A stretch of 64,000 nt of DNA, from contig NZ_CP079946.1 of NCBI RefSeq assembly GCF_019968905.1, positions 5,394,001 to 5,458,000 of the forward strand, written 5' to 3'. Positions within the stretch are counted from its first letter, which is position 1; each line of letters starts with the position of its first letter. Made by a program: the position numbers and the translations under genes. Under the pieces are notes generated by a model. That model had not been told where the DNA came from, did not search any database, and saw only the letters and a program-made list of their open reading frames with translations. This document shows, one piece after another, positions 46,527 through 48,742 of this stretch. The DNA is from Corallococcus sp. EGB (lineage in GTDB: Bacteria > Myxococcota > Myxococcia > Myxococcales > Myxococcaceae).

Positions 46527-46982
46527 GTGGCCGTGGCGCTCATCAAGGACTTCGACCGGTTGAACCAGATGCTCGCGTACCTGAACACCACCTTCTTCAG
46601 CGCCTTCTCGCCGCTCTGGTACGCGCTCGAGCACGCCGGGCTGCCGGAGTCCGAAAGACAGGCGCTGCGCAACCTCGGGGCCCGCAAGGTGGTCTCCGCA
46701 CATGCGAACCTGGAGGCATTGATGGGCGACACACCATGGCTTCTGTGCGACCATCGCACGCTGGCGGACGCCTACTTCATCGGCATCGCCCGGTGGACCC
46801 GGTACCACGAGGTGCTGGACCGCCGCGACTACCCCAAGCTCCAGGGCCTCTTCGAACGGCTGGAGGCGGACGCCGGCGTGCGCTTCGCCCACGCCATTGA
46901 AAACGGCGAGACGCCTCAGGGCGGCGGCGCATTCCAGGGGCACATCCGCCTCGCGGAGGCCCTGCAACGGCTGCCCCTGTGA
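46527..46982 (+). pseudogene. Glutathione S-transferase, C-terminal domain remnant
   Basis: About 151 codons. VAVALIKDFDRLNQMLAYLN, TTFFSAFSPLWYALEHAGLP, LEALMGDTPWLLCDHRTLAD and AYFIGIARWTRYHEVLDRRD match the all-helical C-terminal GST domain (the G-D-x-x-x-x-A-D-A-Y-x-x-x-x-x-R-W block). The thioredoxin-like glutathione-binding half is absent. GTG codons at 46527/46533 could start translation, but a catalytic enzyme is not expected. It begins within five bases of where the LysR remnant ends. Confidence 0.8.
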
Positions 46983-47035
46983 AGGCTTCGTTCGCCCGCT
47001 CCTTAAGGACAGAGCGGGCGGTAAAGCCATCGACG

Positions 47036-47272
47036 TCAGGGGTTCAGGGCGCGGAACACCGCGTCCACCACCTCCTGCTCGGTGGGGAACGCCAGGCCGG
47101 TCTTCTTGATGACGACCTTCCCGTCCACCGCTACTTCAAAGACCCCCGACCCGCCCTTCTTCAGTTCCACATCCACTTCCAACTCATCCTTCAGTACGGC
47201 CGCCGCACGGGTGGCCCTGGGCAGGTAGCCTCAAGCGGTACAGTAGGTGATGGAGACCTTCGCGTCGGCCAT
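47036..47272 (-). CDS. SelW/Rdx-family selenoprotein candidate (in-frame UGA)
   Basis: 78 residues if the TGA at 47231-47233 is read as selenocysteine. Start ATG 47272 has AGGAGG seven bases upstream. The protein reads MADAKVSITYC-T-A-U-GYLP, then RATRAAAVLKDELEVDVELK, KGGSGVFEVAVDGKVVIKKT, GLAFPTEQEVVDAVFRALNP, stop TGA at 47036-47038. It is a complete thioredoxin-like SelT/SelW/SelH domain with C-x-x-U (C11, U14), the G-Y after it, the G-x-F-E-V strand and the K-x-G-x-x-F-P turn. A hairpin at 47198-47216 sits where bacterial SECIS elements lie. The selenocysteine machinery is not in the window. The alternative is a nonsense mutation of a Cys codon (TGC/TGT to TGA). Confidence 0.75.
47198..47216 (-). 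promoter_or_regulatory. Candidate bacterial SECIS hairpin
   Basis: Downstream of the in-frame UGA (14 bases after it), GGCC (47213-47216) can pair with GGCC (47198-47201), with CC/GG pairing inside and an apical GUGC loop starting 23 bases after the UGA with G first. This agrees with the published spacing and apical-G rule for bSECIS elements. Drawn by eye, not folded. Confidence 0.5.
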
Positions 47273-47425
47273 GGTGTGCCTCCTGACGGAATGGGACACC
47301 GCGCGAGGATGCGCGGCCCCTGCACCATCGTGACGCCCCGCCCCCCTCCGCGCCAGCTCTCCGGAGCCGGAATTCGCGAGCTCACAGCAACTGTGCTCCA
47401 GTGGGGTCCCCTCTCGCTTCCATCC

Positions 47426-48742
47426 ATGACCACCGGACCCCATTCGCCACCACATGAGCCGGGCATGCGGCGCGCGGTATCGCGCTGGGAAATCGTCGGG
47501 TTCTCCATCAACGATGTGATTGGCAGCGGTGTCTACCTGCTACCCGCGGCGGCCGCGGCGAACCTGGGCTCGGCCAGCACAGGCGCCGTCGTGCTCGCGG
47601 GGTTGGCGGTGCTGCTGCTCGTGCTCTGCTTCGCGGAGGCAGCCAGCTACTTCGACAAGCCCGGCAGCGCCTATCTCTATACGCGCGAAGCCTTTGGGGA
47701 ACGGGTGGGGTTCCAGGTCGGATGGATGACGTGGCTGGCCCGCGTCTCGTCCGTGGCCTCGTTGTCCGTTGGCTTCTCCCGCGCGCTGGGCTTCCTGTGG
47801 CCAGCGGCGAACTCGGGCCTGGGACAGGGATTGGCCATCGCCGTGCCCCTGCTCGCGCTCACCGCCATCAATGTCGTGGGCGTGAAGGGCGGCGCTCGCA
47901 CCGCGGTGTTCCTCGCCGTCACCAAGACGGTGCCACTGCTGGTGTTCATCGCCGTGGGCCTCTTCTCCGTGTCCGTGCCACTGGCGATGTCGGTGGCTCC
48001 CAAGGAGGGAGGCAACCTGGGATCCGCGGTGCTGCTGCTGCTGTTCGCCTATGCCGGCTTCGAGAACACGGCGGCTCCGGCGGGCGAGTTCAAGAACCCA
48101 CGCCGCGATGTGCCCTTCGCTCTCATCATGCAGATAGGCATTGTCACGGTCATCTACACGGCGGTGCAGTGGGTGGCGCTGGGCACGTTGCCCGGGGTCG
48201 CGGACGCGCAGACGCCGCTCGCCAACGCCGCGGCGCGGTTCCTCGGGGCTTGGGGTGGGCTCCTCATGACCGTGGGCGGGGTGCTGTCCATCCTGGGGAC
48301 CAACAGCAACACCGTGCTCGCAGGACCGCGCTACCTGTACGCGCTTGCGCAGGATGGCTTTGGCCCCGCTGCGCTCGCCACCCTGCATCCGCGCTACCGC
48401 ACGCCAACGGTCACCATCCTCACGCAGACGGCCATCGCGCTGCCCCTGGCGTTCTCCGGCTCGTTCGAGGTGCTCGCCACGCTCTCCGTGGTGGCCCGGC
48501 TCGCCACGTACTTCGGCACGGCCCTGTCGGTGCCCGTGCTGCGAAGGAAACTCCAGGCGCCCGCGAACGCGTTCCGCATCCCGGGCGGGCCGGTGATTCC
48601 CCTCGCCGCCGCCGCGCTGTGCGTCGTCTTCGGGCTGAGTGCGGAGCGCGAGAACCTCATCGCCGGTGCCATCGCGCTCGCGGTGGGATTCGTGCTCTAT
48701 CGATTTCAGCGCAAGCCAGATGGGAAGGCGGCGCTCGGATAG
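47426..48742 (+). CDS. APC-family amino acid permease
   Basis: 438 aa, 12 predicted membrane helices. Starts SRWEIVGFSINDVIGSGVYL, the APC substrate loop G-S-G-x-Y; then FAEAASYFDKPGSAYLYTREA, LLLLFAYAGFENTAAPAGEFKNPRRDVP and a conserved GTNSNTVLAGPRYLYALAQDG. Transports an amino acid or polyamine across the cytoplasmic membrane. A second ATG (47465, MRRAVSRWE) is an alternative start. Divergent from the SelW-like gene. Confidence 0.92.
   Translation: MTTGPHSPPHEPGMRRAVSRWEIVGFSINDVIGSGVYLLPAAAAANLGSASTGAVVLAGLAVLLLVLCFAEAASYFDKPGSAYLYTREAFGERVGFQVGWMTWLARVSSVASLSVGFSRALGFLWPAANSGLGQGLAIAVPLLALTAINVVGVKGGARTAVFLAVTKTVPLLVFIAVGLFSVSVPLAMSVAPKEGGNLGSAVLLLLFAYAGFENTAAPAGEFKNPRRDVPFALIMQIGIVTVIYTAVQWVALGTLPGVADAQTPLANAAARFLGAWGGLLMTVGGVLSILGTNSNTVLAGPRYLYALAQDGFGPAALATLHPRYRTPTVTILTQTAIALPLAFSGSFEVLATLSVVARLATYFGTALSVPVLRRKLQAPANAFRIPGGPVIPLAAAALCVVFGLSAERENLIAGAIALAVGFVLYRFQRKPDGKAALG

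Follow-up and report, generated by a model that had tools for sequence, protein, structure and literature searches.

The window analysed here, 64,000 nucleotides of the Corallococcus sp. EGB genome, carries a putative selW-like selenoprotein gene at positions 47036 to 47272 of the minus strand, recognized by its frame, its family, and its predicted fold. The frame opens with an ATG at 47272, runs for 13 codons to a TGA at 47233-47231, and continues for another 64 codons to a second TGA at 47038-47036, which is counted in the gene. A ribosome-binding site, AGGAGG (47279 to 47284, minus strand), can be read six bases upstream of the ATG, and the same pattern precedes the start at several homologous loci. 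All of these elements, from the strong ribosome-binding site to the second TGA, lie as the initial annotation described them. It had also placed the first TGA at the Sec site of the SelW motif C-x-x-U-G-Y, and this codon does supply the U of a CxxU redox motif (C11-T-A-U14-G-Y). If the first TGA is translated as U, the product has 78 residues: MADAKVSITYCTAUGYLPRATRAAAVLKDELEVDVELKKGGSGVFEVAVDGKVVIKKTGLAFPTEQEVVDAVFRALNP.

The product scores 51.1 bits against the Pfam Rdx family (PF10262; cut-off, 22.6) and 47.5 bits against TIGR02174 (cut-off, 34.2), but it stays below the cut-off of NF041051, the equivalog model for Campylobacter-type SelW (70.4 versus 88 bits). Solved Rdx proteins match it by sequence too. 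A structural model predicted with Sec entered as Cys (mean pLDDT, 82.8) has the element order E-H-E-E-E-H and is thioredoxin-like, with the CxxU motif (C11-T-A-U14) following the first strand (residues 5 to 11) and preceding a helix (residues 17 to 31). The 23 PDB matches with E values of ≤0.001 reach TM-scores of 0.72 to 0.86, normalized by the model; they bear SelW-related or Se-binding titles, are mouse SelW or MIEN1, or are the untitled entries 3dex, 2oka, and 2ojl, which also match the product by sequence, and thioredoxins come next. The Rdx structures 3dex, 2fa8, 2oka, 2obk, and 2p0g and the mouse SelW structure 2npb share the fold of the model, and 3dex has Cys at the aligned position where the window protein would have Sec. 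Given the CxxU motif, the family, and the thioredoxin-like fold, the protein is most likely a thiol/selenol redox protein.

The host genome (9,431,171 bases, or 9.43 Mb, in one contig) encodes the machinery for selenocysteine. The absence of selA, selB, or selC had been named beforehand as grounds for rejecting a selenoprotein, and all of these genes, together with selD, are present: selA at 565.2 bits (cut-off, 267.9), selB at 318.7 bits (cut-off, 242.25), selD at 388.3 bits (cut-off, 125), and the tRNA-Sec gene selC at 70.5 bits (RF01852), which is also called by ARAGORN with the anticodon tca. A second RF01852 match above the cut-off (47.6 bits) is a tRNA-Ser. The SelD frame is uninterrupted by stop codons and has cysteines near its start (HCAGCAAKL), so SelD itself is not a selenoprotein. 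The searches for tRNA-Sec and selD covered the host genome, that for selA covered 145 genomes of the order, and that for selB covered 17. The formate dehydrogenase family TIGR01591 was searched in 12 genomes, and TGA-bearing matches occurred in seven (G000, G058, G063, G069, G070, G074, and G075). The frame in the host (L127:1403-4552, from G000:C1:9357902 onward, outside the window) has one in-frame TGA, at L127:1859, in the setting ARI-U-HASTV, with a predicted hairpin 3' of the UGA. This formate dehydrogenase is likely a second selenoprotein, and at least two genes of the host very probably contain a UGA that is decoded as Sec.

Within the order, 87 of the 145 genomes contain SelW. All 87 loci were read at the CxxU codon; they hold 88 copies, since one locus is a tandem pair, and the codon is TGA in 86 copies and TGC in two, always at the same CxxU position; an in-frame UGA is conserved and is aligned with Cys in homologues. 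The initial annotation had proposed that close relatives all bearing Cys codons would point to a nonsense mutation, and this is not the pattern observed. The genomes are related, and the codon counts are therefore not independent events. Protein identity ranges from 96% down to 34%, and the TGA retained across this range is therefore not a recent nonsense mutation. Matches to selA exceed the cut-off in 128 of the 145 genomes; SelW occurs in 84 of these and in three of the other 17. Among the genomes with a TGA copy, 84 of 86 have selA above the cut-off. The two others are the drafts G050 (80% complete) and G124 (87% complete), and selB exceeds its cut-off in G050 but not in G124. At the scale of the phylum, 98 of 195 genomes match SelW, and the 11 loci outside the order all have TGA at the CxxU codon, with a hairpin in the same register and the same loop G as those described next.

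A hairpin of the SECIS type lies just 3' of the UGA, at 47198 to 47216 on the minus strand, with its stem formed by 47216-47210 and 47204-47198 and its loop, CGUGC, at 47209-47205. It starts 14 bases after the UGA and reaches its loop after 21, so that the apical G (47208) is base 23, where it had been reported from the first reading of the sequence; a U follows at 47207. The SECIS of Escherichia coli fdhF is likewise a short hairpin after the UGA with G and U in its apical loop; compared with it, the hairpin of the window gene has the loop CGUGC and lies one codon further from the UGA. Six of the seven pairs form in the window copy, and the exception is an A-C mismatch (residue 21, Thr). Under synonymous codon shuffling of this copy, the pairing alone has a P value of 0.084, and the pairing together with a GU loop has one of 0.0025. 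Thus, it is conservation across genomes, and not the pairing of the window copy alone, that places the hairpin beyond chance.

In the copies of the order, the hairpin takes the form GGCCGCC-CGUGC-GGCGGCC or a variant of it. The 86 Sec copies of the order yield 75 unique downstream sequences, of which 71 (without the four most divergent) make up alignment A1, with 69 distinct rows counted for pairs; a second alignment, A2, holds 30 of the copies. In the 69 rows of A1, 96.9% of the 483 cells are standard pairs, whereas sliding the stem out of register gives 24 to 72%. Both sides are changed in 20 cells, whereas shuffles give 4.9; neither the count of pairs showing a both-side change (two) nor that of further pair types (six) rises above shuffles (453 of 500 were as high). 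With the 11 Sec copies from the phylum outside the order included, loop base 2 is G in all 97 copies and base 3 is U (84 copies) or G (13 copies), and five to seven of the seven stem pairs form in 94 copies and two or three in the remaining three.

The hairpin might instead be a by-product of the GC-rich Ala codons of helix 1, with the true SECIS located elsewhere or not needed. As this explanation would have it, the region behind the UGA has the same free energy as its synonymous shuffles (mean z, 0.03), and we therefore set free energy aside as evidence for a SECIS; likewise, shuffling a single Sec sequence, or the Cys copy of genome G038 discussed below, reproduces the observed pair count in about 2 to 10% of cases. 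In RNAfold predictions, the designated stem is not drawn in every copy. Because the gene is protein coding, codon choice is the better test of the hairpin, and it speaks against a by-product. In 82 copies (the four most divergent left out), third-base entropy is 0 to 0.78 bits in codons 20 to 25, versus 0.62 to 1.56 bits in the tested codons from 35 on, so these codons are constrained; codon 27 likewise has a low value (0.40), although it lies outside the stem. Among the 71 unique sequences with Arg at residue 22, the codon is CGT in 60, CGG in 11, and CGC in none, against a background in neighbouring frames of 6.6% CGT, 24.7% CGG, and 48.8% CGC. A simple SECIS criterion of our own making is satisfied by 61 of the 75 unique sequences, versus 28.9 from synonymous shuffles, and 14 of the 75 fail it. 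Together with the both-side changes, and with the distant copies, whose hairpins differ in sequence but keep the register, these biases make a by-product very unlikely.

Two other explanations would do away with selenocysteine, and both are extremely improbable. In the first, the gene is a pseudogene, a Cys codon having mutated to a stop that is never read as Sec. The losses within the genus lend this some colour: 4 of 16 genomes have no SelW match though they keep selA, and SelW is therefore dispensable there. In one of these the gene is truncated. In genome G065 (L152, 996-1052), selW is cut off a few codons past the UGA, with selA and selB kept, and in G070 other sequence sits between matched flanks where selW would be expected. 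However, a dead gene would hardly keep TGA in 86 of the order's 88 copies and in all 11 from the rest of the phylum; moreover, the reading frame continues past the TGA, and the Sec machinery is present. In the second explanation, the UGA is suppressed by a near-cognate tRNA (e.g., as Trp) or the 13-residue peptide is itself the functional product. We found no point in its favour; the homologues encountered have Cys in place of the UGA (11 of 11 loci in a scan of named genomes that sought Cys codons only and is therefore biased toward Cys and blind to Sec copies), codons and hairpin behind the UGA are constrained, and the downstream protein is conserved.

We therefore interpret the locus as a gene for a SelW-type (Rdx) selenoprotein whose UGA at codon 14 (47231 to 47233, minus strand) would be decoded as Sec by means of SelB and the downstream hairpin, a reading to which we assign a probability of roughly 95%. 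Sec insertion was the proposal of the initial annotation, and we infer it likewise, from sequence, because of the anatomy of the locus: the frame, the family, the conserved UGA (86 of the 88 copies from the order) and constrained hairpin, and the machinery in the genome. Once ribosomes arrive at the UGA of codon 14, SelB with its Sec-tRNA(UCA) would bind the hairpin, which starts 14 bases further on and presents G and U in its loop. The UGA would be decoded as selenocysteine and translation would proceed to the second UGA. That this is a real stop follows from the final codons of the 88 copies, which are TGA in 50, TAG in 31, and TAA in seven, i.e., something other than TGA in 38. The folded protein would be a small domain of the thioredoxin-like type in which the first strand ends with Cys11-x-x-Sec14.

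The two TGC copies differ in their setting. One belongs to the tandem selW pair of G086 (L084), where it adjoins a Sec copy; the Sec copy has the hairpin, but the Cys copy does not (three of seven pairs). The other, in G038 (L102; 98% complete), is the sole stand-alone Cys copy, in a genome where selA is unmatched and nothing scores above the cut-off for selB. Behind its TGC, all seven pairs can form, three of them G-U, around the loop GGUCU, but RNAfold prefers another fold. In shuffles of this copy, the pairing alone has a P value of 0.10 and the pairing with a GU loop has one of 0.0034, the latter a post hoc figure for a single case. It is possible that this hairpin is a relic SECIS; such relics have been described, in passages of a bacterial survey, for Cys genes derived from selenoproteins (PMC1794560). 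The 11 Cys genes from the scan of named genomes form one to five pairs, and none has GU or GG at loop bases 2 and 3; that scan treated U as C and gives no frequency of Cys forms. A tree of 75 columns and 67 rows (reduced from 99 by dropping near-identical rows, with L151 left out) has many open forks, is unrooted as to the family, and does not show the order of Sec and Cys. In it, G038 groups weakly with Cys rows of other phyla (87/63), and transfer from a Cys lineage is therefore also a possibility.

Tentatively, and with more doubt than confidence, we suggest that SelW in this order follows a rule of selenium or nothing, with lineages losing the gene rather than exchanging the UGA for a Cys codon; in G038, the one lineage that has a Cys copy alone and neither selA nor selB above the cut-off, the hairpin behind the TGC may be a relic. 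If the rule were true, Sec would do something in SelW that is not easily done by Cys, and the order would offer a natural series for selenocysteine loss. In any case, the order holds intact, duplicated, truncated, missing, and Cys-bearing forms of SelW, so that why Sec is kept becomes testable. Although selA and selB are present in G078 and G065, these two genomes have neither a full SelW nor a TGA-bearing formate dehydrogenase match; therefore, other selenoproteins should exist there.

SelW-like selenoproteins have already been reported in bacteria (passages of PMC1794560, PMC1088965, and PMC1242214), and the window selW is a new example within this known family. The forms described there from Geobacter sulfurreducens, Desulfotalea, Symbiobacterium, and others are SelW/Rdx proteins with CXXU and with a SECIS directly downstream whose small apical loop contains a G, as is the case here. 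The insertion of Sec at UGA by SelB acting on a downstream hairpin is established in bacteria (PMC1088965 and PMC4607533). In Campylobacter jejuni, SelW (CJnc60) is a protein of about 80 amino acids with a Sec UGA that annotation had missed, similar in size and UGA to the window gene, and its full-length translation has been proven by Ribo-seq and mass spectrometry (PMC11955535 and PMC4607533). For Anaeromyxobacter dehalogenans, 11 selenoproteins are given in PMC1794560, and SelW is not among them; the main text of that paper contains no word beginning with "myxococc", and nor do the passages of the surveys PMC5029168 and PMC13188914. Judged by title or opening abstract, no paper concerned SelW in myxobacteria, in a literature that covered few subscription journals and whose scope ended short of survey supplements, which may list SelW. 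What the locus adds is a well-supported selenoprotein gene, widespread in one order (87 of 145 genomes) and easily missed by gene callers.

In the list of open reading frames of at least 60 amino acids, the sole entry in the selW frame is one of 74 amino acids that starts far upstream, at 47455, and ends at the Sec TGA; this fits the expectation that gene finders likely cut selW short or miss it. On the opposite strand, the list has a frame of 587 amino acids (46979 to 48742, plus strand) that spans the whole gene. It begins with a GTG at 46979, runs antisense to all of selW, and then passes into a transporter-like frame; this far GTG start, if picked by a gene caller, would hide selW.

The neighbourhood was considered as a guide to function and set aside, as neighbours vary between groups and give no functional hint: when neighbouring frames are clustered, the top cluster spans 39 of the 87 loci and each further one at most 18, and some of the chosen frames appear to be wrong. 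Phages gave no SelW match, and plasmids gave one distant Rdx protein, from Thermomicrobium roseum. The promoter and terminator scan found nothing at selW. A hairpin of another kind, with ten pairs and a loop of eight, lies 15 bases 3' of the final TGA (about 47020 to 46990, minus strand); it has no T run and hence is not listed in the terminator scan, and it probably marks the transcript's 3' end.
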